DNA from: Planotetraspora kaengkrachanensis
GTDB taxonomy: Bacteria; Actinomycetota; Actinomycetes; Streptosporangiales; Streptosporangiaceae
Length of the DNA stretch: 54,999 bases
Direction: 5' to 3'
Assembly: GCF_016862895.1 (NCBI RefSeq)
Contig: NZ_BONV01000057.1
Location: 1 to 54,999 of the forward strand
A model generated the notes under the pieces. That model had not been told where the DNA came from, searched no databases, and saw nothing but the letters and a program-made list of their open reading frames with translations. Made by a program: the position numbers and the translations under genes. How positions within the stretch are numbered: the stretch's first letter is position 1; each line of letters starts with the position of its first letter. Below, piece after piece: positions 18,495 to 50,349 of the stretch.

Positions 18495-18614
18495 GTGATC
18501 ATGCACAGATTCGTGGATCGCCCGCCTGGTCAGCGAAAACATCAATCGTGATCATGCGCGGATTCGCCCGGACGCCCTGTGAACAGGGGAAACGCCGTCC
18601 GTGATCATGCATGC
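18495..18614 (+). repeat. 53-nt repeat array A (three cores)
   Basis: Core GTGATCATGC starts at 18495, 18548 and 18601, exactly 53 nt apart. The first two continue as ACAGATTCG and GCGGATTCG. The array fills the gap between the convergent biotin-carrier and thioesterase genes. The third core ends 4 nt before the thioesterase stop codon (18617-18615). See arrays B, C and D. Confidence 0.9.
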
Positions 18615-18992
18615 TCACAGCCGGGCGAGGAACCTCTCGCGGTCCACGACGACCCGTTCGATCCTGCCGGTGCCCACCAGGACGCCCCTCTTGTCGACGG
18701 CCATGATCGAGAAGACCAGTCGCCGGCCGTCCACCTCGACCAGCTCGGCGGCGATCTCCACGTGCATCCCGACCGGGCTGGGCGCGATGTGCTCCAACTG
18801 GACCTTCGTGCCGACCGATGTCTGGCCGGGCGCGAGGTAGTGCTGGACCGCCTTCACCGTGGCGCTCTCGGCGAACGAGAGCAGCCGGGGTGTGCCCAGC
18901 ACCGGTACGTCGCCGCTGCCCACCCGGATCGCGGTGTCGGACCGCTCCACCATGATGAGGACCTCGGCGCGCAGGCCAGGAGCCAGTGTCAT
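18615..18992 (-). CDS. Thioesterase-family hotdog protein (FlK-like)
   Basis: 125 aa hotdog protein. The order VGSGDVPVLGTPRL, then SFAESATVKAV (central helix with Glu), then GTKVQLEHIAPSPVGM matches the FlK-type (fluoroacetyl-CoA thioesterase-like) family, which is widespread in actinobacteria and not limited to fluoroacetate. It is probably an acyl-CoA thioesterase. Its 3' end abuts repeat array A. Confidence 0.82.
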   Translation of the reverse strand: MTLAPGLRAEVLIMVERSDTAIRVGSGDVPVLGTPRLLSFAESATVKAVQHYLAPGQTSVGTKVQLEHIAPSPVGMHVEIAAELVEVDGRRLVFSIMAVDKRGVLVGTGRIERVVVDRERFLARL

Positions 18993-19030
18993 ACGTGCCA
19001 GCCTATTAGTGCCCGATTAGGGTGAGGACC

Positions 19031-19213
19031 GTGGACCCCTTCTGCGATCACTGCGGCCGCCCGGCCGACGAGGGCGATCACGCCGCGTGCCTCGCCGCCC
19101 GGGTTATGGAGCCGCCGCGCTACTGCCCGCGATGCCGCCGCCGCATGGTGGTGCAGGTCACCCCGCGCAGCTGGTCGGCGCGCTGCTCCGAGCACGGCGG
19201 TGCGGCGAGCTGA
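19031..19213 (+). CDS. bsaP: Biotin synthase auxiliary protein BsaP-like
   Basis: About 60 aa with six Cys and two conserved pairs: PFCDHCGRP near the N-terminus and [15 protein letters not shown] in the middle, then SARCSEHG. The spacing and the run [17 protein letters not shown] are what I remember of BsaP, a small cysteine-rich protein that actinobacterial BioB needs to make biotin. bioB lies 1.9 kb away. GTG 19031 follows GGTGAGG; GTG 19022 would add three residues. Identity is from memory, hence moderate certainty. Confidence 0.72.
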
Positions 19214-19227
19214 GCCACCGCACCACG

Positions 19228-19344
19228 ATGACGCCGTACCGCCCGCCGCCGTACCGCCCGCCGCCGTACCGCCCGCCGCCGTACCGCCCGCCGCCGTACC
19301 GCCCGCCGCCGTACCGCGACGACGAGCCCGCGGCCCTGACCTGA
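19228..19344 (+). CDS. Possible 38-aa Tyr-Arg-Pro repeat peptide
   Basis: An ATG 14 nt after the bsaP-like stop opens a frame coding for MTP, then six YR units separated by PPP (Y-R-P-P-P five times), then DDEPAALT. It is encoded by a 15-nt tandem repeat, so the frame is kept by unit length alone. There is no clear ribosome site. It may be coupled to bsaP or simply be a microsatellite. Confidence 0.35.
   Translation: MTPYRPPPYRPPPYRPPPYRPPPYRPPPYRDDEPAALT
19236..19315 (+). repeat. 15-nt tandem repeat, five full units plus part
   Basis: Units GTACCGCCCGCCGCC begin at 19236, 19251, 19266, 19281 and 19296, with a partial sixth at 19311. All copies are identical, which suggests recent slippage. 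Fifteen is a multiple of three, so copy-number changes would not shift the YRPPP frame. Confidence 0.95.
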
Positions 19345-19366
19345 CGGCGGGCCGGGGCTCGCACGG

Positions 19367-21013
19367 TCACACCCCGGTGGTGTTCCGCGGGTAGGCGATC
19401 TCCGGGTCGGTGGCGATGTTCACCAGGTACGGCACGCCGGAGTCGAAGGCCCTCTGCAATGCGGGACCGATCTCCGCCGGTGACGTCACCAGCTCGCCGG
19501 CGCCGTCGAGGGCGGTGACCACCTGGTCGTACCGCGTCTGCGGCTGAAGCTCGGCGGCCACGTCGTAGCCGTACAACATCTGCATGGGGTGCTTCTCCAG
19601 GCCCCACATGCCGTTGTTGCCGCAGATCATGACGACGGGCAGCTTGTGCCGGACCAGGGTGTCGACGTCCATCAGCGAGAACCCGGCGGCGCCGTCTCCG
19701 AGGAGCAGCACGACCTGTGAGGACGGCCGCGCGATGCGGGCCGCGATGGAGTAGCCGAGCCCGGTGCCGAGGCAGCCGTACGGACCAGGGTCGAGCCAGT
19801 TTCCGGCCTTGCGGGGCTCGACGTACTTGCCCGCGTAGGACACGAAGTCGCCGCCGTCGCCGATCACGACGGCGTCGTCGGCCAGCAGTTTGCCGAGCTC
19901 GCCGTAGATGCGCATGGGGTGGATCGGGTCGGAGTCCGACTCCAGCAGGGGCGTGTCCGCCGCGATCGCCGCCGCGGCCGTCTCGGCCAGCTTGGCCAGC
20001 CACGGGGCGTAGCCCTTGGGGTTCACGCCGGCGGCCTCACATGCCGAGGAGAGGCCCCAGAAGAGCACCGACAGGTCGCCCGCCGCCGACCCGGACAGGC
20101 CGGTGTGCGTGGCGATCTGGGAGGGCGCGTCGCCGATGTGGACGACCTTGGCGAGCGGGGCGCCGTCCTTGCCGCCGAACCAGCCGTAGCCGAGGCGGAA
20201 GTCGAGCGGGGTGCCGACGACGATCACGAGGTCCGCCTGCCCGAAGGCGGCGCCGCGCGCCCGCGTGACGAGCAGCTCGTGGCCCGCGGGCAGGATGCCC
20301 CGGCCCTGGCCGTTCGGGATGACGGGGAGACGGTATGCCTCGGCGAAGTCGCGCGCGGCCTCCTCGGCCCGTTCCATCCAGACGTCCGAGCCGAGCACGA
20401 GCACGGGCCGCTCGGCCTCGGAGATCAGCCGGGCGATCTGGGCCAGTGCCTCCTCGTCGGGCTCGAGCGGCGACGGGCTGAGCGTCTCGGTGGTGTGCGC
20501 GGCCGAGGGGGAGAACAGGTCGTCCATGTAGAAGTCCAGGAACACCGGCCCTCGGTGGGGGGCGACGGCCGTACGGAAGGCCATCTCGACGTCCTGCCCG
20601 ATGGAGTCTGCGCCCGACCCGGTGAAGGCGAGCTTGGTGATGGGCTCCAGCAAGGGGGGATGGTCCATCTCCTGCAGCGCGCCCGATCCCCACCGGGACC
20701 GTGGAGCCCGGCCGCCGAGCACGACCACGGGTGACCCGTTGAAGTGGGCGGTGGCCATTCCGGAGACGCCGTTGGTGATGCCCGGGCCGGCGGTGAGGAC
20801 CGCCAGACCCGGTTTTCTCGTCAGACGCGCGGTCGCCTCGGCGGCGAAGACCGCGCTCTGCTCATGGCGGACGTCGAGAATGCGCATGCCTTCGTGCACG
20901 GCCCCGTCGTAGAGGGGGAAGACGTGCCCGCCGGACAAGGTGAACATCGTCTCGACGCCGTAGGCCTGAGAAACGGCGACCGCGATGTCGCCTGCGTGCT
21001 TGGGGGACTCCAT
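19367..21013 (-). CDS. Thiamine-diphosphate enzyme, acetolactate synthase-like (IlvG-type)
   Basis: 548 aa. N-terminal PYR domain with catalytic Glu in VRHEQSAVFAAEA (near residue 51) and LTAGPGITNG; central domain (FAD/Rossmann-like) about 190-330; C-terminal PP domain with TPP motif LGDGAAGFSLMD ending in ICGNNGMWGLEKHP. It closely resembles mycobacterial IlvG, a second acetolactate-synthase-like protein whose real reaction is uncertain. No small regulatory subunit is next to it. It is on the same strand as bioB but 88 nt downstream, possibly read through. Confidence 0.88.
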   Translation of the reverse strand: MESPKHAGDIAVAVSQAYGVETMFTLSGGHVFPLYDGAVHEGMRILDVRHEQSAVFAAEATARLTRKPGLAVLTAGPGITNGVSGMATAHFNGSPVVVLGGRAPRSRWGSGALQEMDHPPLLEPITKLAFTGSGADSIGQDVEMAFRTAVAPHRGPVFLDFYMDDLFSPSAAHTTETLSPSPLEPDEEALAQIARLISEAERPVLVLGSDVWMERAEEAARDFAEAYRLPVIPNGQGRGILPAGHELLVTRARGAAFGQADLVIVVGTPLDFRLGYGWFGGKDGAPLAKVVHIGDAPSQIATHTGLSGSAAGDLSVLFWGLSSACEAAGVNPKGYAPWLAKLAETAAAAIAADTPLLESDSDPIHPMRIYGELGKLLADDAVVIGDGGDFVSYAGKYVEPRKAGNWLDPGPYGCLGTGLGYSIAARIARPSSQVVLLLGDGAAGFSLMDVDTLVRHKLPVVMICGNNGMWGLEKHPMQMLYGYDVAAELQPQTRYDQVVTALDGAGELVTSPAEIGPALQRAFDSGVPYLVNIATDPEIAYPRNTTGV

Positions 21014-21101
21014 GCGGTGAACCTACCAGTCAGTCACTTAGCCGGTCTGGGCTCTTGGTCTGGCAGAACTTCCCCGAATCGCGGCGTTGACACCCTGACC
21101 G

Positions 21102-22142
21102 CTAGAGGGTCTGGGACAGCGCCTTGATCGGCATCTTCAGGTCGGCGAGGAGCCCGAGGTCGTCCTCGGGCGACCGGCCGAGGGTGGTCAGGTAGTTGCC
21201 CACGATGATCGCGTTGATGCCGCCGAGCATGCCGTCGCGCGTGCCGAGGTCGCCGAGCGTCAGCTCCCGCCCTCCCGCGTAGCGCAGGATCGTGCGCGGC
21301 AGGGCGAGGCGGAACGTGGCGATCGTCTTGAGCGCCTCCGTGCCCGCCACGAGCGGGTAGTCGGAGAACGGCGTGCCGGGGCGCGGGTTGAGGAAGTTGA
21401 GCGGCACCTCGTCGGGCGCCAGCTCGCCGAGCTGGGCGGCGAACTCCGCCCGCTGCTCCAGCGTTTCGCCCATGCCGACGATGCCGCCGCAGCACAGCTC
21501 CATGCCGGCGTCGCGGACCATCAGGCAGGTGTCCCAGCGCTCCTGCCAGGTGTGGGTCGTGACCACGTGGGAGAAGTGGGAGCGCGCGGTCTCGAGGTTG
21601 TGGTTGTACCGATGGACCCCCATCTCGGCGAGCTCGTCGACCTGGGCCTGGGTCAGCATGCCCAGCGAGCAGGCGACGTTGATGTCCACGGCCTCGCGGA
21701 TGGCCTTCACGCCCTCGCGCACCTGGTCCATGAGCCGCCGGTCGGGGCCGCGCACGGCCGCAACGATGCAGAACTCCGTCGCCCCGGTCTGCGCGGTCTC
21801 AACCGCCGCCTGGACCAGGGAAGGAATGTCCAGCCAGGCGGCCCTGACGGGCGAGGAGAACTGGCCCGACTGCGAGCAGAAGTGGCAGTCCTCCGGGCAG
21901 CCGCCGGTCTTCAGGGAGATGATCCCCTCCACCTCGACCTCGGGACCGCACCACTTCATCCGCACCTCGTGCGCCAGCGCGAGCAACTCGGGCAGGCGCT
22001 CGTCGGGCAGGGTCAGGCAGGCCAGCGCCTGTGCCGCGTCCAGCCCCCTGCCCTGCTCCAGCACCTGGGCGCGGGCGACTTCCACGATGTCGGTCTCCAA
22101 GGGACTCCGTTCCGCTTCGGGCGACTGCGGGGTTTCGGTCAC
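21102..22142 (-). CDS. bioB: Biotin synthase BioB
   Basis: 346-aa radical-SAM enzyme that inserts sulfur into dethiobiotin. The SAM-cluster motif is [14 protein letters not shown] (C-X3-C-X2-C) near residue 75, and [10 protein letters not shown] and LNPRPGTPF are conserved biotin-synthase blocks. GTG 22142 overlaps the bioD stop as GTGA. Operon order is bioF - gntR - bioD - bioB. Confidence 0.97.
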
Positions 22143-22861
22143 GACGAAAGCTTAAAGGTCGAGCGGAATGCGGCGGGATCGAACACACCCCCGAGGGTGG
22201 GGGCGAGTCCCGCTCGGGCGACGTCCGCGAACTCCTCCCTGGTCAGCGCGCCTGCGCCGGCCGGCAACGCGCCGGCGAGCGGTCGCGCGGCGAGCGTCTC
22301 CAGGTCGGCGACGTTGCACCGTTCGGCGAGGTCGGGCTCGGCGGGCCACGAGCCGATCACCACTCCGGCCGGCTCCAGGCCCCGGCCCGCCATGGCTTCC
22401 AGCGTGAGCGCGGTGTGGTTGAGCGTGCCCAGGGAGGGCCTCGCCACCACCACGACCAGCGCGTGGAGCTCCCTGGCCAGGTCGGCGAGCGTCCCGCCGT
22501 CTTCGTCGAAGCGGACGAGGAGGCCGCCCGCGCCTTCGACGATCACGAGCCGGTGCGACTCGGCGAGCTCACGGATGCGCGCCGCCGCCGCGGACAGCGA
22601 CAACGGCGGCAGGCCCGCGGTCCGGGCAGCGGCAGCGGGAGAGAGCGGGTCGGGGAACCTGGCGAACTCGAACGTCGTCGTGACCCCCGACAGCCGGATC
22701 ACCTCGTCGAGGTCGCCGGCCTCGCCCGGCGCCACACCCGTCTGCGCGGGCTTCACGACCGCGACGGCGGCGCCCCTGTCCCTTGCGAGGGCCGCGACGG
22801 CGGCCGTCACCACCGTCTTGCCGACGCCGGTGTCCGTGCCGGTGACAACGAGAATGCTCAT
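22139..22861 (-). CDS. bioD: Dethiobiotin synthetase BioD
   Basis: About 240 aa. ATP-dependent closure of the ureido ring of diaminopelargonic acid. The P-loop is [15 protein letters not shown] at the N-terminus. The substrate Lys is in VVKPAQTG, and [18 protein letters not shown] is the second conserved block. ATG 22861 is used; GTG 22864 would add one residue. It is 16 nt after the GntR-family gene and overlaps bioB. Confidence 0.95.
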
Positions 22862-22877
22862 CACCGCAGCGTAGGAC

Positions 22878-23606
22878 CTACGGCCGCCTGAGGCGCGTCA
22901 CGAACTTGTAGCGGTCGCCCCGGTAGAGGGACTGGGCGAACTCGACCGGGTTACCGTCCGCGTCGAAGGCGTGCCGGGTCAGCATGAGCATCGGCAGGCC
23001 GACGTCCACGCCGAGGATCTGCGCGTCGTACGGCGTGGCGAGCACCGTCTCGATGACCTCCTCGGCGTCGGTGAGCCGCACGTTGTACGCGGTGTGGAGC
23101 GTCTCGTAGAGCGAGGAGTGGCCTTCGAGCTCGCGCCGGAGGCGCGGGAAGCGCCGCGCGGACAGGTGGGTCGTGTCGATCGACATCGGCTCTCCGTTGG
23201 CCAGCCGCAGGCGGTGGACCCGCAGCACGCGGCCGCCCGGGTTGATCGCGAGCCGCCGACCCAGGGCCTCGTCGGCCGTGACGTAGCTGATGTCGAGGAT
23301 CTTGGTGTCGGGCTCGAGGCCGACCGTCCGCAGATCGCCGGTGTACGACGTGAGCTGGAGGACCTGGGCCACCTTGGGCTGGGCGACGAACGTGCCCTTG
23401 CCCTGGATCCGCAGCAGCCGGCCCTCGACCACGAGCTCGGACAGAGCCTGGCGGACCGTCGTCCTTGAGGTCTCGAAACGCACGGCGAGGGTCCGCTCCG
23501 GCGGCAGGGCGCTGCCGGGGGGCAGGCTCTTGGTGAGCTCCAGCAGGTTCCGCTTGACGTCGTAGTACTTGGGAACCCTGGGAGAGTCCTCGCTGTGCTC
23601 CGTCAC
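22878..23606 (-). CDS. DasR-like GntR/HutC-family regulator inside the bio operon
   Basis: 242 aa. N-terminal GntR winged helix ([20 protein letters not shown], then [16 protein letters not shown]). The C-terminal 150 residues are a UTRA effector domain, ending [13 protein letters not shown]. It resembles DasR of Streptomyces closely throughout ([34 protein letters not shown]), the N-acetylglucosamine/amino-sugar regulator. Its place is unexpected: it overlaps the bioF stop (GTGA) and lies just before bioD. It may be the DasR orthologue in a new place, or a paralogue for biotin control. Confidence 0.88.
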
Positions 23607-24763
23607 GTGTCCACCTTCAGTTCGGCCACAGCGGTGAGCGCGCCCCTGACCGCCGCGAGATCATCGGACCTCAGATCGGCCCTGGCGGTCAACCTGAGGC
23701 TGGACCGGCCACGGGGAACCGATGGTGGACGGAAGCATCCCACGCGTATGCCGCGTTCCGCACACAGGTTCGCCGCCGCGAGCGCGAGGTGCGGCGAGCC
23801 GAGCACCACGGGGACGACCGCCGCAGCGGGTTCGCTGGTCTCCAGCCCGGCCTCCCGGGCCATGCCGGCCAGGGCGCGGGCCCGGGACCGTGCCTGTCGG
23901 GGCAGGTCGGGCGACTCTTCGAGGATGTCGAGCGCGGCCAGCGCCGCTCCCGCGCAGGCGGGAGCGAGGCCGGTGTCGAAGATGAACGAACGGCCTGTGT
24001 CGACGAGCGTCTCGATCACTTCGGTGGCCCCCAGCACGGCGCCTCCCTGGGACCCCAGCGACTTGGAGAGCGTGACAGTTCTCACAATATGAGAATCCCC
24101 CGAAAGGCCCGCTTCGTGAACCGCTCCTCGGCCCTGATCGCCGACGACGCCCAGCGCGTGCGCCTCGTCCACGATCAGGAACGCGCCGTGCCGTACGGCC
24201 AGGGCGTGGAGGCGGCGCAGCGGCGCGAGGTCGCCGTCGACGGAGAAGACGGCGTCGGTCACGATGATCGCGTGCTCCTCCGAGCGCTCGGAGAGGACCT
24301 TGGCGACGGCGTCGGCGTCCCCGTGGGGGGTCACCTCCACCCGCGACCGCGACAGGCGGCAGGCGTCGACGATCGAGGCGTGGTTGCCGGAGTCCGAGAC
24401 CACGAGCCCGCCCCGCGCCAAAGCGGCGACCGCGCCCAGGTTGGCGAGATATCCAGAGGAGAAGACGAGGGCGCGGTCGGCCTGGGTGAAGGCGGCCAGC
24501 CGCTCCTCCAGATCGGCGTGAAGCCGGGTCGTCCCCGTGACCAGCCGTGAGCCGGTCGAGCCCGTGCCCCATTCGCGGGTCGCCCGCACGGAGGCCTCCA
24601 CCAGGCGCTCGTCCCTGGAAAGGCCCAGGTAGTCGTTGGAGGCCAGGTCCAGCAGGCCGTCGTGATCGGGGGTCCGCGGACGCAGGACCCGCCGCAGGCC
24701 CGCGGTCTCCCGCTCGGCGGCGGCCATGCGCAATCTGTCGAGCGGTCGCGTCATGGAGTGCAT
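23603..24763 (-). CDS. bioF: 8-amino-7-oxononanoate synthase BioF
   Basis: 386-aa PLP enzyme condensing pimeloyl thioester with L-alanine, first step of the biotin ring pathway. N-terminal [44 protein letters not shown] (PLP Asp/His); PLP Lys in [16 protein letters not shown]. It heads the operon and is divergent from the sensor kinase, with 59 nt between. bioA, which acts next, is not in the window. Confidence 0.95.
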
Positions 24764-24822
24764 ACTGCCAGGTGACAGAGGTCGATTCGCTTTCAGGCCG
24801 CTTCACGTCGCATCATGCACAC

Positions 24823-26313: not shown

Positions 26314-26325
26314 TCAGGCGGCCGG

Positions 26326-26651: not shown

Positions 26652-26662
26652 AGCTAATGCGT

Positions 26663-28405: not shown

Positions 28406-28406
28406 T

Positions 28407-32614: not shown

Positions 32615-32817
32615 GTGATCATGCACCCCTTCGGGCGTGTGCCCAGTCACCTGCGCCTCCTCGCGCCGTGATCATGCACACGTTCGGGGGTGTACGGCGC
32701 CACCTGCGAAGACCTCGTTCGTGATCATGCGCGGATTCGTGCGCGTGCGGCCCCACCTGTGAAGCCTCGAGTCGTGATCATGCATCGCCTGATGCGTGTT
32801 CCGACTCGAGGCTTTTC
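32615..32817 (+). repeat. 53-nt repeat array B (four cores)
   Basis: Core GTGATCATGC starts at 32615, 32668, 32721 and 32774, each exactly 53 nt apart. The second and third units share CACCTG at unit positions 34-39. The first core lies 11 nt after the malic-enzyme stop codon. The last unit differs after its core and forms a terminator. With the promoter region to 32927 it fills this 324-nt gap. Confidence 0.93.
32762..32816 (+). terminator. Intrinsic-type terminator built around the last repeat
   Basis: AAGCCTCGAGTC (32762-32773) and GACTCGAGGCTT (32803-32814) pair perfectly, plus one more G-C pair, and end in TTTT. The loop contains the repeat core and an inner GCATC/GATGC hairpin. It is the best rho-independent-like terminator in the window and ends the malic-enzyme transcript. 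Confidence 0.85.
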
Positions 32818-41987: not shown

Positions 41988-42272
41988 GGCGGAAATCGCC
42001 TTCTTCCGCAGATGGGCGTTGTTGTTTTAGAACCGGTCCAAGGCTACTCGCCCTGGACGGTGTGGTGCGCCCGTCGGGGCCAGGTCCTGGCTCATCGTCC
42101 CAGGATCGATCAAAGAGGTCAGGCGCGAGTAGTCCGTCTGGGTGGTGAGGCAGTGCTTACTGAATGGTCATGTCTCAGCCGGGACGGGTGTTTTCGACCG
42201 AAATGATTGCATGGCCCCGGGATCCGGCCCTCCCGAACGTGATGTTTCGCGCGGGCCGGTCGTCCCGGACAT

Positions 42273-42914
42273 TCAGTCGATCAGCCGTCGCTCGATCCGT
42301 ACCGCCGGCGTGATGGCGGTGAGCAGGGCCGTGAGCTCGTCTCCGGCCGCGGCCAGTTCGTCGGAGGACAGCGGCTCCAGCCGTTCGAGAAGGAACAGGG
42401 CGTCCACGGTCTCCTCGGTGATCCGGGTGCGGACGCACTGCCGCCAGTTCCACCTCCGGCAGGTGACGCCCGTGTCGTCCCGCCAGATCACTTCGCCGAT
42501 CTCCGGCTCGCCGAGCGCCTCCTCGGACGGTTCGTCGCCGGCGGCGCGGACGAGACGCGCGGCGCCGTCGTAGCGGCGCAGGTCCTCGCCGCCGATCGGC
42601 AGGCCGTGCCGTACGGACACGGCGTTGTAGGCGTCGACGACCAGGTTGATCTCCGGGAGGGGCATCCGGCGGACGAGGGCGTCGACGGACGGCCGGGTCC
42701 GCTGCGGCTTGGCGCCGAAGGCGCGGTAGGCCGTGCGCCACGCCTCGACCTTCTCGTGGTCGGTCGGTACGGCGTCGGCCGCCGCGGCAGCCAGCCATTC
42801 GCGCGACCTGTCGTCGGTCGGGCCGTTGGCCAGGCCGTAGGCGCAGATGGCGAGCACGGCGAAGTCGGGACGCAGTCGTCGGACCGCCTCGTCAATCCGG
42901 ATTTCCTCGATCAC
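42273..42914 (-). CDS. B3/B4-domain protein (PheRS-beta tRNA-binding-like)
   Basis: 213 aa from GTG 42914. Features of the B3/B4 domain seen in phenylalanyl-tRNA synthetase beta and stand-alone proteins: PLPEINLVVDAYNAVSVRHGLPIGGEDLRRYDG (in outline), and IWRDDTGVTCRRWNWRQCVRTRITEET. Stand-alone members may edit misacylated tRNA or act as small ligand-binding proteins; this is not settled. Divergent from the ArsR-family gene across a palindromic operator. Upstream of kgd, 41988-42272 holds no gene I can support. Confidence 0.8.
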   Translation of the reverse strand: MIEEIRIDEAVRRLRPDFAVLAICAYGLANGPTDDRSREWLAAAAADAVPTDHEKVEAWRTAYRAFGAKPQRTRPSVDALVRRMPLPEINLVVDAYNAVSVRHGLPIGGEDLRRYDGAARLVRAAGDEPSEEALGEPEIGEVIWRDDTGVTCRRWNWRQCVRTRITEETVDALFLLERLEPLSSDELAAAGDELTALLTAITPAVRIERRLID

Positions 42915-42952
42915 GCGGCCCAGCCTAGGGGCGGGGCGGTGTTGTCCGCTCA

Positions 42953-42986
42953 TCGCAAACAAAAGTTTGCAAACTTATCTTTGCGA
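42953..42986. promoter_or_regulatory. Nested concentric palindrome between divergent genes
   Basis: An inner perfect palindrome AAGTTTGCAAACTT (42963-42976) and an outer pair TCGCAAA (42953-42959) / TTTGCGA (42980-42986) share the same centre at 42969/42970. The site is AT-rich in a GC-rich context and 17 bp before the ArsR-type start. It is a probable double operator for that regulator, possibly covering the divergent B3/B4 gene. Confidence 0.8.
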
Positions 42987-43002
42987 AGTTAGGCTCGGTG
43001 GC

Positions 43003-43563
43003 ATGAGCGATGAGGTCTTCCATGTGAGTGATCCGCGGACGCTCAAAGCGGTGGCGCACCCCCTCCGGGTGCGCCTGCTGGGGGCGCTCCGGTCGGACGG
43101 GCCCGCGACCGCCACCGAACTGGGCGCCAGGTTCGGGGAGAGCTCGGGATCGACGAGCTATCACCTGAGGCAGCTCGCCCGGTACGGGTTCGTCGAGGAG
43201 GACAGGGAGCAACGTGATCGCCGCGAGCGGCGATGGCGGGCCGTCCACCGGATGACCTCGTGGAGCAACGCCGAGATGTCGGCGACCCCCGAGGGCCGGG
43301 AGGCCGCGGACCTCCTGCGCCGCCGCCAGGTCGAGGTGCTGACGGACACCGTGGAGGCCTTCGAGCGGGACAGGGACTCGTGGAGCACCGAGTGGATCGA
43401 GGTCGCCGGGATGTCCGACGACGTCGTACGGCTGTCGCCGGCGTCGGTGGCCTCGTTGACGGAACAGCTGTGGGTCATGCTCAGGGAGGCCGCCGACCGG
43501 GACAGGGGCGCTCCCGACGCCCGTCCCGTGTCCGTGTTCTTCGCCGCCCACCCCCGCGCGTGA
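43003..43563 (+). CDS. ArsR-type winged-helix regulator
   Basis: 186 aa. N-terminal winged helix: DPRTLKAVAHPLRVRLLGAL, ATATELGARFGESSGSTSYHLRQL, YGFVEED. No CXC metal site, so it is not a metal sensor of the classic kind. C-terminal 100 residues helical (YjhU/HTH_20 type). It precedes an MFS efflux gene and is therefore probably its local repressor. The stop codon TGA is part of a 53-nt repeat core (array C). Confidence 0.9.
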   Translation: MSDEVFHVSDPRTLKAVAHPLRVRLLGALRSDGPATATELGARFGESSGSTSYHLRQLARYGFVEEDREQRDRRERRWRAVHRMTSWSNAEMSATPEGREAADLLRRRQVEVLTDTVEAFERDRDSWSTEWIEVAGMSDDVVRLSPASVASLTEQLWVMLREAADRDRGAPDARPVSVFFAAHPRA

Positions 43564-43866
43564 TCATGCACAGGTTCGGCGAGATGTGCTGTGAGCTGGG
43601 CGAAAGCCGTACGTGATCATGCACGGATTCGGCCGGACCATGGGTGACCTGCGCCGACTTCCTTCGTGATCATGCAATCCGGCGGCCGGCCGCGGGCGCA
43701 TGATCACGAACCGGGAAATGGCAGGCCGGAGGGCCGCGCGCCGAAGGCGTGCATGATCACGAACCGTGAAACCGCAGATCAGCCGGGTCGCCGCCGAAGG
43801 CGTGCATGATCACGGCGAGAGTCGTCGCAGGTGAAGGACCATGATCAAGAAGGTGAGCATGATCAC
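43560..43866. repeat. 53-nt repeat array C (seven cores, orientation flips)
   Basis: Plus-strand cores GTGATCATGC start at 43560, 43613 and 43666. Minus-strand cores end at 43707, 43760, 43813 and 43866. All neighbouring same-strand cores are exactly 53 nt apart. The flip lies at 43666-43707, where two cores face each other across GC-rich palindromic sequence. The first core contains the stop codon of the ArsR-type gene; the last contains ATG 43859 of the MFS gene. Unit positions 36-40 again read CCTGC in most copies. Confidence 0.93.
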
Positions 43867-45121
43867 GCCGAGTACGCGCAAGTATGCGCTTGTGGAGTTC
43901 CTCACCTGGTTGCCGGTGGGGTTGATGATCGCGCCGATGGTTCTGCTCATGTCGGTGCGCGGGCTCGATATCGCCCAGATCGGCCTGGTCACGGCCGCGT
44001 ACTCGATCACCGTCGTGGTCCTGGAACTCCCCACGGGCGGGCTGGCCGACGTCATCGGCCGACGGACCGTCCTCGCCGCCTCGGCCGTCTTCAGCGTGGC
44101 GGGGTTCACCATGACGGCGCTGGCGGGCACGTTCTGGGCGTTCCTGGCCGCCTCGCTCCTCAAGGGCGTCGCCCGGGCCCTGTCGAGCGGCCCGGCCCAG
44201 GCCTGGTACGTCGACGGGCTCCATGCGCTCGAAGGCCCGGACGCCGACCTCAAGCCCGGCCTCGCGGCGGGCGGGGCCGCCGGGTCCGTCGCCCTCGCCA
44301 TCGGAACGCTGACAGGCGGTGTGCTCCCGTTGCTCGTCAGCGGCGAGTCGCTCGCCGTGCCGGTCTGGGCGGGCGGGGGTGCCGCCCTGGTCCTGCTGTT
44401 CACGGTCCTCCTCGTGATGCGGGAGCCGGCCAAGCCGGTCCGGCCGCGCTTCGCGGACGTGATGCGCGACGTCCCGGTGACCATCGGGGGAGGGTTCAGG
44501 CTCGCCGTGCTCGACCGTGGCCTCGGGCGCCTGCTGCTCGTCGCGGTGACCGTGGGCGTGCTGCTCAACAGCATCGAACTGCTGACGCCCGGCCGTCTGG
44601 CCGCGCTCACGGGACGACCCGAGACGGCCGGCACGATCTACGCGGTCGTGGCCGCCGCCGGGTTCGCGGCGAACGCCGTGGGCAGCTCCATCGCTCCTGC
44701 CGTGGCCAGGCTCGCCCGGGGGTCGATGCGCGCCGTCATGCTGGCCACCGTCGTCACGGCGGCGTCCGTGGGCGCCCTCGCGGCGTCGGTGGCCCTCGAC
44801 GGCGTGGCGGGAATGGCCGCCGCCGGAGCCGCCTATGTCGTGCTGTTCACGGGCCTCGCCGTCAGTTCGCTGTTCAGGACCGAGCTGATCCACCAGCGGG
44901 TCGCCTCGACGCAGCGGGCGACCGTGATGTCGGTCGACTCGCTCCAGTTGCAGCTCGGCGGGATGGTCTCCTCGCTCGTGCTGGTCCCGATCTCGGCGCA
45001 GGTGGGCACGGGCGGATCGTGGGCCGTGAGCGCCGTGATCACGCTGTCCGCGGCCCTCCTCTATGTACGGCTCCCCGCCGCCCGCCCGGCCGTCGCCGTG
45101 CCTGTACGGCAACCCCAGTAG
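43841..45121 (+). CDS. MFS transporter
   Basis: 426 aa (421 from ATG 43859), about 12 membrane helices. MFS motif A variant GGLADVIGRRTVLAAS between helices 2 and 3, and VVLELPTGG before it, typical of the drug/proton antiporter-like branch. It follows an ArsR-type regulator, a standard repressor-efflux layout. Two starts are possible: 43841 (AAGGA 3-4 nt upstream) and 43859 (AAGGTG upstream), the second lying inside the last repeat core. Confidence 0.9.
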   Translation: MIKKVSMITPSTRKYALVEFLTWLPVGLMIAPMVLLMSVRGLDIAQIGLVTAAYSITVVVLELPTGGLADVIGRRTVLAASAVFSVAGFTMTALAGTFWAFLAASLLKGVARALSSGPAQAWYVDGLHALEGPDADLKPGLAAGGAAGSVALAIGTLTGGVLPLLVSGESLAVPVWAGGGAALVLLFTVLLVMREPAKPVRPRFADVMRDVPVTIGGGFRLAVLDRGLGRLLLVAVTVGVLLNSIELLTPGRLAALTGRPETAGTIYAVVAAAGFAANAVGSSIAPAVARLARGSMRAVMLATVVTAASVGALAASVALDGVAGMAAAGAAYVVLFTGLAVSSLFRTELIHQRVASTQRATVMSVDSLQLQLGGMVSSLVLVPISAQVGTGGSWAVSAVITLSAALLYVRLPAARPAVAVPVRQPQ

Positions 45122-45174
45122 AACGATGTTCGGGTGACAGGGCAGAATCGGGGGGTGCGAAAGGGGTGCGGCCG

Positions 45175-46242
45175 ATGAGCAAGCCGACCGTTACGGCGGC
45201 CAACGAGGAACAGCGCGCGGCCTGGCTCGCCCGGGTCGTCCCGGAGGTCGAGCGTGTGCGGCCGGGGTTGTGGTCGATCCCGGTGCCGATTCCCATCAAT
45301 CCGCTCCGCTACGTCCTCGTGTACGCGCTGGAGATCCCGGACGGCGTGGCGATCATCGACGCGGGATGGAACACCGACGAGGCCTACGACGCCCTCGTGG
45401 CCGGGCTGCGGACGGCCGGATACGAGATCACCGATGTCAAGGCGGTGCTGGTCACCCACATCCATCCGGACCACTACGGCCTGGCCGGGCGCATCCGGGA
45501 GGTCTCGGGGGCCTGGATCGGCCTGCATCCGGAGGACGCCCGGCTGGTCCACGAGCGCTACGACGACTCCGCCATCCAGGCGCTGATCGCCCGGGAGCGG
45601 AGTCTGCTGCTGCGATGCGGCGTGCCGGAGATGACCGCCCAGGAACTGGCCGGCGCGTCCATGATGTTGCGCAGTTTCGTGACGATGGCCGTTCCGGACC
45701 GGCTGATCGAGGACGGCGACCGGATGGACCTCCCCGGATGGGACCTGCGGGCCATCTGGACCCCGGGGCACTCGCCCGGCCATCTCTGCTTCGTGGAGCC
45801 CGACCGGCGGCTCCTGTTCTCCGGCGACCACGTGCTGGCGAAGATCACGCCGATGGTGGCGGTGCACCCCCAGTCGACGGCGAATCCGCTCGCCGACTAT
45901 CTCGACGCCCTCAGGAGTGTCGGGAAACTCGACGTTGACGAGGTGCTTCCCGCCCACGAGTTCCGGTTCCTCGAGCTGGGTGAGCGCGTGGACTACGTGG
46001 TCAAGCACCACGAGGAGCGGCTCGCGGAGGTGGAGCGTGTCCTCGCCGAGACGGGCGGCAGCACGTGCTGGGACCTCGCGACCCGGCTGACCTGGTCGAG
46101 GCCGTGGGAGAGCATCGCTCCCCACATGCGGCGCGGCGCCAACAACGAGACGCTGGCCCATCTCGTGTGGCTGGAGGCGCGCGGTCTGGTCTCGCGCGTG
46201 CCCGGAGAGCCGGATCTGTGGCTCTCCGCAAGTTCTATGTAA
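45175..46242 (+). CDS. MBL-fold metallo-hydrolase (glyoxalase-II/LACTB2-like)
   Basis: 355 aa. Metal motif THIHPDHYGLAG (HxHxDH) near residue 94, then PGHSPGHLCF (second His), SGDHVLAKITP (bridging Asp) and LPAHEF (last His), so the dinuclear zinc site is complete. The C-terminal 90 residues include HHEERLAEVERVL, as in LACTB2-type proteins, with a winged-helix-like tail. Probably a thioesterase or lactonase-type hydrolase on an unknown substrate. It follows the MFS gene by 53 nt and may share its transcript. Confidence 0.88.
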   Translation: MSKPTVTAANEEQRAAWLARVVPEVERVRPGLWSIPVPIPINPLRYVLVYALEIPDGVAIIDAGWNTDEAYDALVAGLRTAGYEITDVKAVLVTHIHPDHYGLAGRIREVSGAWIGLHPEDARLVHERYDDSAIQALIARERSLLLRCGVPEMTAQELAGASMMLRSFVTMAVPDRLIEDGDRMDLPGWDLRAIWTPGHSPGHLCFVEPDRRLLFSGDHVLAKITPMVAVHPQSTANPLADYLDALRSVGKLDVDEVLPAHEFRFLELGERVDYVVKHHEERLAEVERVLAETGGSTCWDLATRLTWSRPWESIAPHMRRGANNETLAHLVWLEARGLVSRVPGEPDLWLSASSM

Positions 46243-46257
46243 ACCAAGTAGGAAATG

Positions 46258-46286
46258 TTGACTATATGCGCCGATGCGTTTAGCGT
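46258..46286 (+). promoter_or_regulatory. Sigma-70-type promoter giving a leaderless upstream ORF
   Basis: TTGACT (46258-46263), 17-nt spacer, TAGCGT (46281-46286). Transcription should begin about 7 nt on, at or within 1 nt of the ATG at 46294, so the first ORF would be leaderless. Confidence 0.75.
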
Positions 46287-46293
46287 CGGCGGC

Positions 46294-46374
46294 ATGAGTC
46301 AGGACGCGTTCACGGCCCGGCCCGCTCGCGGAGACGTCGGCCGCTCCGGCGGCCGCCGATGTCGATCTCGGTGA
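46294..46374 (+). CDS. 26-aa leaderless upstream ORF (candidate leader peptide)
   Basis: Starts at the predicted transcription start and encodes a 26-residue peptide ending GRRCRSR, with its only Cys four residues from the end. Upstream of sulfur- or flavin-related operons, actinobacteria often carry short leaderless ORFs with a terminal Cys that sense cysteine supply. Position and Cys placement suggest that role here; this is inference. Confidence 0.55.
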   Translation: MSQDAFTARPARGDVGRSGGRRCRSR

Positions 46375-46438
46375 GAAGCCCGCGATCGGACCGGCTCCGG
46401 GTCCCGCTGGAGCGTCGCTCTCCCCCGTGGAGGACCGC

Positions 46439-46546
46439 ATGTCCAAGAAACCGCACCTCGAGGCCATTTTGACCACCATGCCGCCCGTCCTCCTGGGCGG
46501 CCCGGGTCCCGCGGGGGACCACGCACGACTGAGGAGGACGCGATGA
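46439..46546 (+). CDS. 35-aa ORF coupled to the FMN-reductase gene
   Basis: ATG with GGAGG 5 nt upstream; begins MSKKPHLEAILTTMPP and ends RLRRTR. Its TGA overlaps the next ATG (ATGA), so the reductase is likely translated by coupling. There is no better ribosome site for it except GAGGAGG just before, which can serve it too. The peptide is unlike any family I know. Confidence 0.55.
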   Translation: MSKKPHLEAILTTMPPVLLGGPGPAGDHARLRRTR

Positions 46547-47169
46547 GCATCGTGACCCTGGTGGGCAACCCGCGGGAAGGGTCCAGGACGCTCGCCATCG
46601 CGGTACGCGCCGCCGAGGCTGTGGCCGGACGGCTGCGACCCGCCGCCGGGCTCGCGGACGCGGCAGGCGCCTCGGAGGGGAGCAGTCCCGCCGCCGGCGG
46701 CTCAGGGGAGTACGGCCGAGCGGGAGACGTGGTGGACCTGGCCGCTCTCGCGCCGGACCTGCTCGCCCGCGAGCCGGGGCCCGGTGTGGAGTCTGCGCTG
46801 AAACTGGTCCTGGACGCCGAGGTCCTGGTGGTGGCCAGTCCCACCTACAAGGGGACGTACACGGGGCTGCTCAAGGTGTTCCTCGACAGGCTTCCGCACC
46901 AGGCGCTGGCAGGGAAGACGGCGTTGCCGCTGCTGGTCATGGGCGATCCCAAGCACTCCCTCGCGGTCGAGGTGCACCTGAGGCCGCTGCTGGTCGAGCT
47001 CGGCGCCTTCGTCCCCACGCCCGGGCTGGTGGTGCTGGACTCGGTGGTCCCGCGTGATTTCGGCCCCGATTCCGGCGCGACGGCCGTACCCGAACTCGAC
47101 GATCTGCTGGACCGCTGGGCCGGGCAGGTGGTTCCCCGCCCGCCGTCGTCCCAGGAGGTTCCGGAATGA
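46543..47169 (+). CDS. NAD(P)H-dependent FMN reductase (SsuE/MsuE-like)
   Basis: 208 aa flavodoxin-like fold. N-terminal VTLVGNPREGSRT is the FMN phosphate loop; SPTYKGTYTGLLKVFLDRLP is the family signature; LLVMGDPKHSLAVEVHLRPLL is in the C-terminal half. Such reductases feed FMNH2 to two-component monooxygenases, often for sulfonate desulfonation. An odd Gly/Ser-rich insert (about residues 40-60) is unusual. No monooxygenase partner follows. Confidence 0.88.
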   Translation: MSIVTLVGNPREGSRTLAIAVRAAEAVAGRLRPAAGLADAAGASEGSSPAAGGSGEYGRAGDVVDLAALAPDLLAREPGPGVESALKLVLDAEVLVVASPTYKGTYTGLLKVFLDRLPHQALAGKTALPLLVMGDPKHSLAVEVHLRPLLVELGAFVPTPGLVVLDSVVPRDFGPDSGATAVPELDDLLDRWAGQVVPRPPSSQEVPE

Positions 47170-47197
47170 CACGCGGACCGGCTCGGAGGTCCAGCTG

Positions 47198-47857
47198 ATG
47201 ACCGCCATGCACGACTCGCCCCCCGACGCTCACGTCCCGACGCACCTCCGGCTCGTGCCCTCAGAGGGCGACCGATCAGAAAATTACGACCGATCAGAAA
47301 ACCCCGACCCCGCCGAGGACGTGGACCCGGCCGAGAGGACCTCCGCGCGGAACGGATCGTCGGCGGCGCAGGCCGGTCCGGTCAGCGGCGAGGAGTTCCG
47401 CCGGGCCCTCGCCGTGCACGCCGCCGGGGTGGTGGTGGTGACCGCCCGGCCGGAGGGCGTGCCGGTGGGACTGACCGCCACCTCGTTCTCGTCGGTCAGC
47501 CTGGAGCCGCCCCTGGTGTCGTTCTACGTGGCGCAGTCGTCGACGACCTGGCCGGCGCTGCGGCGGGCCGATCACTTCGCGGTGAACGTCCTCGCAGGCG
47601 ACCAGGCGGAGGTCGCGGCCAGGTTCGCGAAGAAGGACATCGACCGCTTCGCCCATCCGACCAGGTGGAGCGGGGGCCCGCAGGACGCGCCGCTGCTGCA
47701 CGACGTGTCGGCGCACCTGATCTGCCGTCCCCACCACACGGTCGAGGTCGGCGACCACATCCTCGTCGTCGGCCTGGTCACCTCGACCACCGTGAGCTCG
47801 GCGGGGCGTCCCCTCCTCTACCACAAGGGCAGATTCGGGCGGTTCCTGCCCTACTGA
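47198..47857 (+). CDS. Flavin reductase family protein
   Basis: 219 aa from ATG 47198 (GGAGG about 9 nt upstream). A low-complexity acidic N-terminus (about 1-60, including a repeated DRSEN from a duplicated 14-nt segment) precedes the split-barrel flavin reductase domain: HAAGVVVVTARPEGVPVGLT, TSFSSVSLEPPLVSFY, and GDHILVVGLV, then PLLYHKGRFGRF. It reduces FMN/FAD for a partner oxygenase. It lies 28 nt after the FMN reductase, so one transcript makes two flavin-reducing proteins. Confidence 0.88.
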   Translation: MTAMHDSPPDAHVPTHLRLVPSEGDRSENYDRSENPDPAEDVDPAERTSARNGSSAAQAGPVSGEEFRRALAVHAAGVVVVTARPEGVPVGLTATSFSSVSLEPPLVSFYVAQSSTTWPALRRADHFAVNVLAGDQAEVAARFAKKDIDRFAHPTRWSGGPQDAPLLHDVSAHLICRPHHTVEVGDHILVVGLVTSTTVSSAGRPLLYHKGRFGRFLPY

Positions 47858-47888
47858 CCGGACTGCTCGCCGTACTCGATCAGCCGGA

Positions 47889-47920
47889 GGACGGGCCGTT
47901 CCGAGGGGGACGGCCCGTCC
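47889..47920. terminator. Bidirectional hairpin between convergent genes
   Basis: Perfect 11-bp arms GGACGGGCCGT and ACGGCCCGTCC with a 10-nt loop, ending 6 nt before the stop of the DapB-like gene on the minus strand and 31 nt after the flavin reductase. Confidence 0.8.
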
Positions 47921-47925
47921 TGCGG

Positions 47926-48984
47926 TCAGGCCAGGCGGACGGCGCCGCGTCCCGTCGCGAGCGGCAGGTCGAGGATCGTCCGGATGCCCGGGGGCGCCGC
48001 GCACACGGCGGCGATCGAGTTGACCGCGTGCGCGGCCGCGCCCGCCAGGCCGTGCGACACCTCGTCGATGGTGACGGCCATGGTGGGCCTGCCTTCGATG
48101 TGGATGGCGAACCCGGGCCGAGCCCACCGCGGCGCCTTGTCCGCGTCCGCCTTATAGACGCATTCGACGGTCATGAACGGCATGTTCTTCACCAGGCCGG
48201 TGAAAACCCATCGGGACGCGCAGACCGTGCCGGGCCGCACCACTCCCGCGGCGATCTCGAACTCCTCCGTGGCCAGTTCGAACTCGTCGCTCTCCTCGAT
48301 CTCATCGAGCGCGACGCCGAGGGTGGACGCCACGAGCTGGACGCTCTCCGCGAACAGCGACCGCTGATAGGCGCGGAAGGGGCGGATCGCGTCCGCGTAG
48401 TCCTTGGGCGCGCGTGAGAAGCCGATCAGGTCGGTGACGATCTGCCGGGACGGATGACCGCGGTAGTCGGAGGACTCGCGTACGTAGATGTGGTCGAGCC
48501 GGTCGGACAGCCCGGTCAGCGCGAGCGGCAGCAGGTCGCTCATGAAGCCGGGGTTGATGCCGGTCCCGTGCAGGGAGGTCCCGCCGCGGGCGCAGGCCGT
48601 CTCGATCCGCTCGACGACGCCGGGGCCGTACGCCTGGGGATAGACGAATCCGGTGGTGGTGATGACGTTCTTGCCCGACGACAACAGCGCGCAGATCGTC
48701 TCGAGGTCGGTCGATGGATCGCCGCCGAAGTACGACGCCGGTAACGGCATGTGGAGGACGCAGTCGGCCTCCATGGCCAGCACCTGGTCGACGTCGTCGG
48801 TGCACACGACACCCGCCGTGCCCAGGCCCACCAGCTCACCCGCGTCGAGCCCGACCTTGTCGGGGTCGTAGACGAGAGCTCCCACCAGCTCGAACTCCGG
48901 ACGATTGATCACATTCCGCAGCGCGTATCCCCCGACTGCGCCGGTGGCCCACTGGACCACGCGCAGGGGTGGAGTAAAGGGCAT
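47926..48984 (-). CDS. DapB-like NAD(P)-dependent dehydrogenase
   Basis: 352 aa. N-terminal Rossmann fold with VVQWATGAVGGYALRN (a variant of GxxGxxG) and VLHMPLPASYFGG. The middle has GTGINPGFMSDLLPL, and the C-terminal half is the dimerisation/catalytic domain of dihydrodipicolinate-reductase-like enzymes (2,4-diaminopentanoate-dehydrogenase type). The real DapB catalytic His/Lys motif is not seen, so it is probably not lysine synthesis. In actinobacteria such genes often lie near lipid or steroid catabolism. Divergent from an SDR. Confidence 0.8.
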   Translation of the reverse strand: MPFTPPLRVVQWATGAVGGYALRNVINRPEFELVGALVYDPDKVGLDAGELVGLGTAGVVCTDDVDQVLAMEADCVLHMPLPASYFGGDPSTDLETICALLSSGKNVITTTGFVYPQAYGPGVVERIETACARGGTSLHGTGINPGFMSDLLPLALTGLSDRLDHIYVRESSDYRGHPSRQIVTDLIGFSRAPKDYADAIRPFRAYQRSLFAESVQLVASTLGVALDEIEESDEFELATEEFEIAAGVVRPGTVCASRWVFTGLVKNMPFMTVECVYKADADKAPRWARPGFAIHIEGRPTMAVTIDEVSHGLAGAAAHAVNSIAAVCAAPPGIRTILDLPLATGRGAVRLA

Positions 48985-49164
48985 GCGTGGCCTCCAGCCA
49001 GGTCAGCTCTGGGCGGGGGCCGTGCTGGGAGGGGTGTCGTCGTTGACCCACGCCCGTCCGGGGGCCAGAAACTATAGCAGAAATCACCGGATTGATCACA
49101 GTACGCGGTGATCTGCTGTTGGTCGCCGTCGCTTTCAGGTGGGAGAGCTATTGTTCAGGCAACT

Positions 49165-49177
49165 AGAACCTTGTTCT
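49165..49177. promoter_or_regulatory. Inverted repeat upstream of the SDR gene (candidate TetR operator)
   Basis: AGAAC-CTT-GTTCT, 19 bp before the ATG at 49197. It resembles KstR-type sites (AAC-nn-GTT), but the spacer is 3, not 2, nt. Position suits a repressor of the SDR gene. The rest of the 48985-49196 region is AT-richer and likely holds both divergent promoters. Confidence 0.5.
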
Positions 49178-49196
49178 CCTCCGAAAGGTGGGCGTC

Positions 49197-50093
49197 ATGC
49201 CGGATCTCAGGTTCGACGGACAGGTGGCGGTCGTGACGGGTGCGGGACATGGTCTCGGCCGCTCGCACGCGCTCCTGCTCGCGGAGCGCGGGGCCAAGGT
49301 CGTCGTCAACGACCTCGGCGGCGCCCTCGACGGCACGGGCCCGTCCTCCGGGCCCGCCGCGGACGTGGCCGAGCTGATCGTCAAGAACGGCGGCGAGGCG
49401 GTGGCCAACGGGGACAACGTCGCGACACCCGAAGGTGCCCAGGCCGTCGTCCAGACCGCGATCGACACGTTCGGCCGGGTGGACATCGTGGTCAACAACG
49501 CCGGGATCCTGCGGGACAAGTCGCTGGGCAAGATGACCGTCGAGGAGTTCGACGCCGTGCTGGCCGTCCACGTGCGCGGCTCGTTCCTGGTCACCCGGGC
49601 GGCGTTCCCGCACATGAAGGAGCAGGCGTACGGGAGGATCGTCAACACCTCCTCGCCCGCCGGTCTGTTCGGCAACTTCGGCCAGGTCAACTACTCGACC
49701 GCGAAGATGGGCCTGGTCGGCCTCACCAAGTCGGTCGCCATCGAGGGCGCGCGCGCCAACATCAGGGCCAACGCGATCGCGCCGATCGCCTGGACCCGGA
49801 TGACCGAGGCGTTGTTCCCCGCCGAGTTCGAGGAGAAGCTGACGCCCGAGCGGATCAGCCCGCTGGTCGCCTACCTCGCGCACGAGAGTTGCGAGACGAC
49901 CGGCGAGGTGTTCTCCGTGGGCGGTGGCCGCGTCGCCCGCGTGTTCGTCGCCGAGGGCCCGGGCTGGCGTACGGACGACCTCACGATCGAGGCGATCCAC
50001 GACAACTGGGACGCCGTGATGACCGAGGAGCCCCACCTTCAGCCCACCACGCTGGGGGGACAGGCCACCGCGTCCATGCAGGCCATGCTGTAA
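49197..50093 (+). CDS. SDR oxidoreductase, MFE-2/17-beta-HSD4-type
   Basis: 298 aa from ATG 49197 (GAAAGGTGG upstream). Rossmann VVTGAGHGLGRSHALLL and NDLGG, then NNAGILRDKSLGKM. Catalytic Ser in IVNTSSPAGLFGNFGQ and Tyr-Lys in VNYSTAKMGLVGL. NDLGGALDGTG is characteristic of the dehydrogenase part of peroxisomal multifunctional enzyme 2, which oxidises 3-hydroxyacyl-CoA in beta-oxidation. C-terminal 60 residues match the same subfamily. Partner hydratase not present. Confidence 0.9.
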   Translation: MPDLRFDGQVAVVTGAGHGLGRSHALLLAERGAKVVVNDLGGALDGTGPSSGPAADVAELIVKNGGEAVANGDNVATPEGAQAVVQTAIDTFGRVDIVVNNAGILRDKSLGKMTVEEFDAVLAVHVRGSFLVTRAAFPHMKEQAYGRIVNTSSPAGLFGNFGQVNYSTAKMGLVGLTKSVAIEGARANIRANAIAPIAWTRMTEALFPAEFEEKLTPERISPLVAYLAHESCETTGEVFSVGGGRVARVFVAEGPGWRTDDLTIEAIHDNWDAVMTEEPHLQPTTLGGQATASMQAML

Positions 50094-50120
50094 CCACGCC
50101 GCTGCGGTCACGTCCATCGA

Positions 50121-50160
50121 TCGCGGGCCGGCGCCGGGTGTGTCCCGGTGCCGGCCGCGA
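50121..50160 (+). terminator. Long hairpin after the SDR gene
   Basis: About 17 paired bases between TCGCGGGCCGGCGCCGGG and CCCGGTGCCGGCCGCGA, with one bulge and one G-T pair, and a 5-nt loop. It lies 28 nt after the SDR stop and just before the first core of array D. Confidence 0.8.
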
Positions 50161-50168
50161 TGCGGCGT

Positions 50169-50349
50169 GCATGATCACGTCTGGTGTTCTCGCAGGTCGC
50201 GAGGCGCGCCTGCGAATCTGTGCATGATCACGGCGAGGGTTTGGCCAGGCCGTACGGCGTGGCGCCGAACCTGTGCATGATCACGGCGAGGGGTTGGGCA
50301 GGTCGTGCGGCGTGGCGCCGAACCTGTGCATGATCACGGCGAGGGGGGG
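50169..50349 (-). repeat. 53-nt repeat array D (four cores)
   Basis: On the minus strand, GTGATCATGC cores begin at 50337, 50284, 50231 and 50178, each 53 nt apart. Three of the units read ACAGGTTCGG or ACAGATTCG next, and GACCTGC or GGCCTGG at unit positions 34-40. The two units nearest the GH65 gene are almost identical, so this is the youngest array. The stop codon of the GH65 gene lies in CCTGA at the unit-tail position just before the first core. Confidence 0.93.

Follow-up and report, generated by a model that had tools for sequence, protein, structure and literature searches.

Polar arrays of a near-invariant 10-mer at gene boundaries in Planotetraspora and other Actinomycetes, tentatively read as transcription-boundary elements

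Dispersed repeats at gene ends are already known in bacteria. The REP/BIME/REPIN elements occur in many dispersed intergenic copies at the 3' ends of genes, move at a low rate, and have a possible role in termination or RNA stability. The mycobacterial interspersed repetitive units (MIRU) of an actinobacterium are intergenic tandem direct repeats of ~53–100 bp, which run in the direction of the upstream gene and frequently overlap its stop. The DNA uptake sequence (DUS) of Neisseria, as passages of one study present it (PMC3630211), is an abundant 10-mer with species dialects that forms inverted pairs at terminators, and its intragenic copies are common. Here, we describe arrays of another 10-mer, GTGATCATGC (the core), in a 54,999-nt stretch of Planotetraspora kaengkrachanensis DNA (the window), which is one entire contig of the 8.77-Mb genome. 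The element consists of a C-rich leader and then repeats of the near-invariant core, each carrying a tail specific to the species; it begins close to a gene boundary and is directed into the gap. Its polarity, its convergent-only geometry, its near-invariant core with dialect tails, and its multi-family range are fit by none of the systems tested. From these sequence features, we read the arrays, with a probability of about 0.45, as possible direction-specific transcription-boundary elements that would be read by a dedicated factor, perhaps with Rho.

A first-pass annotation of the window had listed 18 copies of an identical 10-mer and judged them not to be due to chance. All 18 are present at their listed positions as exact cores, against 0.06 expected, with a maximum of 1, in 100 dinucleotide shuffles. 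The 53-nt period that it gave holds in every same-strand interval, of which there are 13 (two in array A, three in B, two in C-forward, three in C-reverse and three in D; Table 1) rather than the 14 counted. The four arrays that it recognized stand as four loci, but locus C consists of two convergent arrays, so there are five same-strand arrays. As it had also claimed, they lie between predicted genes, with two small overlaps only. The first core of C-forward has 4 nt in common with the upstream gene, at its stop, and 26 nt of C-reverse (43841–43866) run into the predicted start of an MFS transporter gene; that start may be miscalled, with the true one perhaps further downstream. The whole genome carries 946 cores (451 forward, 495 reverse) against 0 for the reversed control word, a contrast that is flattered because the control includes CTAG, which is rare in many bacteria. 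Cores at 53-nt spacing, for which the first-pass annotation had suggested a genome-wide search, were found 531 times as core-N43-core, with 0 for the control. In the same genome, 451–606 kb of contig C1 and 1–260 kb of contig C2 hold a few lone cores only, against a genome average of ~108 cores/Mb, and arrays may perhaps avoid part of the chromosome.

The repeat unit was derived from the 473 distinct units that carry GTGATCATGC as the core. After the core come a tail of consensus AcA.gTTCG at positions 10–18, a variable stretch, GACCTG at positions 33–38, and a C right before the next core. The post-core stretch and the (G)ACCTG that had been said to be shared between units were thus recovered here as well as in a set of 66 units from contig C1 and the window. 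Across Planotetraspora and strain A-T 1434 (170 arrays), 353 of 404 same-strand spacings are 53 nt, 19 are 52 nt, 6 are 54 nt and 7 are 106 nt. Six spacings of 30–35 nt were found in the P. kaengkrachanensis stretches, every one at the 5' end of an array. The leader, taken as the 20 nt 5' of the first core, has C and G fractions of 0.54 and 0.19 in 104 stop-side arrays and of 0.52 and 0.20 on the start side, compared to 0.38 and 0.33, and 0.31 and 0.32, in the two controls. A CRISPR array is ruled out, since the repeat is only 10 nt and the interiors share a consensus.

The placement of the arrays was examined against genes called with a simple codon-score script, and 136 arrays with two or more cores could be placed in context. 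Not one of these is covered by a gene, compared to 6 of 12 cores that stand alone. For stop-side arrays, the median distance from the stop codon to the first core is 16 nt, and the core itself supplies the TGA stop in 19 of 92. Such an overlap may recall the MIRU; 44 of the 136 arrays face a start codon instead (median distance 93 nt). By their description, MIRU are set apart from the arrays by the latter's near-invariant 10-mer, convergent-only geometry, dialects, C-rich leader and start-facing members. Passages of a genome-scan study (PMC5217627) describe motifs paired at a fixed distance across a variable spacer, some of them between convergent genes; this core, period or clade is not described in those passages. 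A search of the open-access literature with the strings GTGATCATGC and GCATGATCAC gave no title on a bacterial repeat among the matches listed. The first-pass annotation knew of no named element with this pattern, and we likewise recognized none in that literature, judged largely by title.

Arrays are distributed unequally among types of gap. With gaps of at least 30 nt, they are found in 42 of 118 convergent, 46 of 358 tandem and 12 of 167 divergent gaps; the sample was partly picked for holding arrays, so only the ratios between gap types count. Both orientations occur together in 42 of the 100 array-bearing gaps, and all 42 are convergent. The same holds for such gaps in Microbispora G186 (10/10), strain A-T 1434 (8/8), P. 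mira (5/5) and genus g34 (2/2), where the A-T 1434 and P. mira counts partly overlap with the 42. Opposite-strand neighbors no more than 400 nt apart are convergent in 13 of 13 cases in G432 (among 100 of 113 pairs) and in 5 of 5 in G373 (among the first 45 of 171 pairs, as counted in the matches listed, with the reverse strand covered to ~1.19 Mb). The pairs can be tightly packed: one in P. mira is interleaved by 24 nt, and in Microbispora G186, where 23 of the 26 arrays are made of three cores, 6 of 10 pairs leave precisely 4 nt between their last cores. One locus in G491 has arrays after both convergent genes, with the stop of one gene inside a core.

The arrays can be compared in place between species. 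Contig C1 of P. kaengkrachanensis (360 kb) and contig C1 of P. mira (380 kb) share 287 syntenic gaps; the compared stretches contain 17 and 19 arrays, respectively, of which 15 and 15 lie within those gaps. Arrays occupy the same 11 of the 287 gaps in both species, with identical orientation patterns, and the number of units often differs. In these orthologous arrays, the core positions are identical at 597 of 611 (97.7%) and the rest of the array at 1421 of 2153 (66.0%), figures that favor the cores somewhat because core positions were counted if exact in at least one genome and the alignment was anchored on cores. Other intergenic positions are identical at 1114 of 1522 and gene ends at 947 of 1029. 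In 38 gap-free orthologous unit pairs, positions 15–18 (84–100%) and 33–38 (71–92%) are also conserved, with most other positions outside the core at 34–68%. Since there are conserved blocks outside of the core, the element is constrained in place despite the core-favoring alignment.

One species is losing its arrays. The median protein identity to P. kaengkrachanensis is 96.1% for P. phitsanulokensis and 94.2% for P. mira. Among the 11 array gaps, P. phitsanulokensis has 5 without any array of two exact cores, five in which the array is shortened, and one that keeps its core number; in one case, the gap has gone from 530 to 16 nt with the same convergent genes on both sides. When up to two mismatches are admitted, phased pairs rise from 118 to 192 (+63%) in this species and by 9–19% in four other Planotetraspora. 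Loss of a trans-acting factor would fit this pattern.

The tail that follows the core is nearly fixed within each species. In P. thailandica, 89% of 88 units have GAA at positions 11–13 and none has C at position 11, which is found in 93–99% of units in P. kaengkrachanensis, P. mira, P. silvatica and P. phitsanulokensis. In A-T 1434, 92% of 88 units have TTCC at positions 15–18, compared to 0–1% in the others. G077 carries the P. thailandica dialect, including at the orthologous malic-enzyme site, so the switch of dialect seems to have occurred in place. In Microbispora, the first unit has GTGATCTTGT and later units have GTGATC[AT]TGC; in G186 (L280–L299), the first unit has a conserved sequence of its own, GTGATCTTGTAGTTTGTCGCA, unlike the second, and position within the array may matter. 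Genus g34 has GTGATCTTGC.

The range of the element was followed with pattern searches that demand near-exact cores and bounded spacing. A loose phased pattern was found in 18 of 345 genomes of the order sample, of which G088, G136, G195 and G196 look like chance or another element. Two matches in G088 (genus g46; C5:82497 and 249788, L187) have another inverted element in common (GTGATCTTG... CAAGATCATTTCAGGAC). In the class sample, 8 of 394 genomes have two exact cores 29–58 nt apart, with 593 such pairs in P. kaengkrachanensis, 168 in G373, 111 in G432, 22 in G371, 20 in G579, 14 in G491, 3 in G119 and 1 in G637, the last of which looks like chance. Outside the family, the tails are AATCCCGCCACCC in G373, ACGTTCGCCCC in G491 and ACGCCAGCG in G579, and the spacers of these three are 59–71% C and 16% G. 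G371 has the shortest period seen, with 22-nt tandem arrays of GTGATCATGC plus 12 nt on contigs C2, C5 and C9.

A polar element for termination or insulation is favored by the gene-end placement, the polarity, the order of frequency from convergent through tandem to divergent gaps, and the precedents of Rho and of roadblocks. The convergent-only geometry, the constraint on the core, the loss of arrays with decay of cores in P. phitsanulokensis, and the weaker best hairpins of convergent gaps with single-orientation arrays count in its favor too. The strand asymmetry of the C-rich leader, and of the C-rich spacers outside the family, suggests a role for the transcript. According to passages of PMC4337669, Rho binds unstructured C-rich RNA, and bacterial protein roadblocks can lead to termination with Mfd or Rho, according to passages of PMC4132739. 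We propose that RNA polymerase that runs out of a gene, or that transcribes antisense out of a promoter region, would enter the array in its 5'-to-3' direction. A trans-acting factor would recognize the core and tail, on DNA or on nascent RNA, and would stall or release the polymerase, perhaps helped by Rho loading at the C-rich leader. Convergent array pairs would then insulate both sides, and loss of the factor would account for the decay in P. phitsanulokensis. The Pol I terminators with Reb1, Nsi1 and TTF1, in which a protein site just past the gene stops the polymerase (in passages of PMC12366685), offer a functional comparison only; unlike the arrays, they are eukaryotic and belong to ribosomal RNA genes.

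The first-pass annotation had offered a repeated RNA element as one explanation, and as a structured unit, this is not supported. No helix-like covariation was found in 435 units, where the largest Watson–Crick excess is one isolated pair (z 3.5), and five folded units gave z from -1.80 to +1.43. Strong stems enclose the last core of 8% of single arrays and 7% of paired ones, compared to 2% and 6% at control cores; an intrinsic terminator is thus not a general feature, array B and a few others excepted. In convergent gaps, the median best hairpin is -20.0 with single-orientation arrays (n = 22), -25.7 with both orientations (n = 19) and -28.2 without arrays (n = 60); single-orientation gaps are longer than array-free ones, yet their best hairpins are weaker by these medians, taken without a significance test. 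Between convergent arrays, the sequence folds more stably than its shuffles (mean z -2.24, 54% below -2, n = 76; single arrays -0.50, n = 59), because the facing cores are complementary.

Several observations weigh against a transcription boundary. In tandem gaps, 29 arrays face antisense and 37 face sense; with the antisense-facing ones nearly as common, many arrays are not plain 3'-UTRs. A few percent of genes at most have an array, by a rough estimate from 946 cores at 3–5 per array. Perfect stems of at least 8 bp occur in 5 of 22 and 6 of 19 array gaps and in 15 of 60 array-free gaps, frequencies similar enough that the arrays do not clearly replace intrinsic terminators; between convergent arrays, where the facing cores give structure, ordinary hairpins may have a role. 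Near-miss cores are frequent in A-T 1434 as well (366 exact pairs, rising to 522 with up to two mismatches, +43%), so that they alone are no mark of decay. P. phitsanulokensis evidently survives the loss of its arrays. Finally, the factor was not found among the genes of the compared C1 stretches (360 kb in P. kaengkrachanensis), where none is present in P. kaengkrachanensis and P. mira yet missing from P. phitsanulokensis.

The main rival is a slowly mobile, non-autonomous repeat that finds a safe landing at gene ends, is moved by some enzyme and has little or no host function; we regard it as possible but doubtful. Array A speaks for movement. Its site has no array in 15 of 16 other genomes; in four other Planotetraspora, the two convergent genes are retained with 7–10 nt between them, and A-T 1434 has its own array there, next to a different neighbor gene. 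Among full-length matches to array A, the nearest are 83% (G104 contig 37, 121 nt) and 80% identical (P. kaengkrachanensis contig 48, 127 nt), with others at about 69–77%. By this comparison of sequences, array A is a recent gain in P. kaengkrachanensis, and its presence in one genome with relatives at 80–83% indicates that arrays have moved or been copied, rarely. Identical units at several G373 sites, the patchy range across the class, and the entire arrays gone from P. phitsanulokensis point the same way. The site of array B, which is common to five Planotetraspora genomes and A-T 1434, has no array in 12 other genomes read, several of which have a plain hairpin by eye. Against mobility, there are 0 gains or losses across the 287 gaps syntenic with P. 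mira, and a dead insertion is unlikely to hold its core at 97.7% while the rest drops to 66%. Nor is a Y1 transposase consistently present: PF01797 (RAYT or IS200/605 type) gave 0 matches in 8 of 13 array-bearing genomes (P. kaengkrachanensis, G022, G104, G125, G059, G186, G215 and G051), though they are present in the array-rich G077, in G119, G193, G084 and G034, and in 3 of 7 array-free genomes. This transposase thus does not track the arrays. No array match was found in viral contigs, and none in plasmids or phages with array B as the query. The arrays resemble REP/BIME/REPIN in being dispersed, intergenic and near gene 3' ends; they differ in being polar, in having no conserved stem and in the absence of a Y1 transposase from 8 of 13 array-bearing genomes, and the palindromic-unit and RAYT tests speak against membership. 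Mobility and a boundary role are not exclusive, since the host could have co-opted a mobile repeat.

The first-pass annotation had itself proposed a binding platform with sites phased at five helical turns, which would now be an improbable chromosome-organizing or nucleoid-protein platform. Within Planotetraspora and A-T 1434, the phasing fits, with 378 of 404 spacings at 52–54 nt, a near-invariant, non-palindromic core, and the strongest column couplings between bases one or two apart. It is not general, because spacings vary across families: same-core arrays in three other families have spacings of 29–59 nt (the search admitted only this range) and, in G371, of 22 nt. Spacings near 32, 43 and 53 nt in G579 and G491 hinted at a helical rule, which was rejected since G373 disagrees. 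The resultant at a 10.5-nt period is 0.26 in G373 (n = 99), 0.62 in G491 (n = 14) and 0.83 in G579 (n = 19), where the latter two consist mostly of one narrow spacing cluster and so would be high at any nearby period. Such a platform also needs neither the gene-boundary placement, the polarity nor the C-rich leader.

A self-recognition word like the DUS, spread by biased uptake and recombination, is less probable again. The ~1000 copies of a 10-mer, the species dialects and the inverted pairs between genes are all shared with the Neisseria system; the arrays differ in that none of the 136 lies in a gene and in their tandem arrangement. We know of no natural transformation in these genera. Chains of translated mini-ORFs, suggested by the TGA and ATG within the core (which make 53 nt equal to 16 codons plus TGA plus TC) and by 41 ATG-frame stops against a column-shuffle expectation of 66 (sd 6.7), are scarcely credible, as the depletion is not specific (three-mer z-scores have an sd of 3.2, and TAG is underrepresented in every frame), internal stops interrupt 39 of 473 units, and the frame is broken by the 52- and 54-nt spacings and by many in other families.

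The features of the window are collected in Table 1. The genes that flank its arrays are ordinary: a biotinyl carrier, a thioesterase, a malic enzyme, a winged-helix regulator, an MFS transporter, a short-chain dehydrogenase/reductase (SDR), a glycosyl hydrolase of family 65 (GH65) and one without a Pfam match. The GH65 gene next to array D is convergent with the SDR gene. The window gave 0 Rfam covariance-model matches at the gathering threshold and no tRNA. At 19232–19317, there is a perfect tandem repeat of a 15-nt unit, CGCCGTACCGCCCGC, in 5.7 copies.

Table 1. Arrays and associated features of the window.
Feature	Positions	Strand	Basis
C-rich leader, from the stop codon of the biotinyl-domain gene to array A	18466..18494	+	sequence
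Array A: 3 cores (two 53-nt units), flanked by convergent genes; site in P. kaengkrachanensis only	18495..18610	+	
Array B: 4 cores, three 53-nt units; stop codon of the malic-enzyme gene 11 nt upstream	32615..32783	+	
Intrinsic-terminator-like hairpin with the last array B core in its loop; arms 32764-32773 / 32803-32812, then TTTT	32764..32816	+	read from sequence
Array C-forward: 3 cores; first core contains the TGA that ends the winged-helix regulator gene upstream	43560..43675	+	
Array C-reverse: 4 cores, convergent with C-forward, last cores 22 nt apart	43698..43866	-	
Array D: 4 cores, 12 nt downstream of the minus-strand glycosyl hydrolase family 65 gene	50169..50337	-	

The gene-end placement, the convergent-only geometry, the constraint on the core in place, the dialects and the loss in one species all lie beyond the reach of the first-pass annotation. 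In high-GC actinobacteria, the ending of transcripts and the separation of neighboring genes are, as far as we know, less well understood than in E. coli. The boundary question is testable here because P. phitsanulokensis provides a natural loss line beside sister species that keep the arrays. A wider possibility, which we consider rather unlikely as a whole, is a class-wide two-part DNA or RNA code in the Actinomycetes, in which a near-invariant 10-mer and a species tail would be read by a dedicated, co-evolving factor that has two recognition surfaces, one conserved and the other variable, setting polar boundaries at hundreds of gene ends and being lost with the factor in some lineages. If this is true, the near-fixed species dialects would be a clean case of one factor co-evolving with hundreds of sites.

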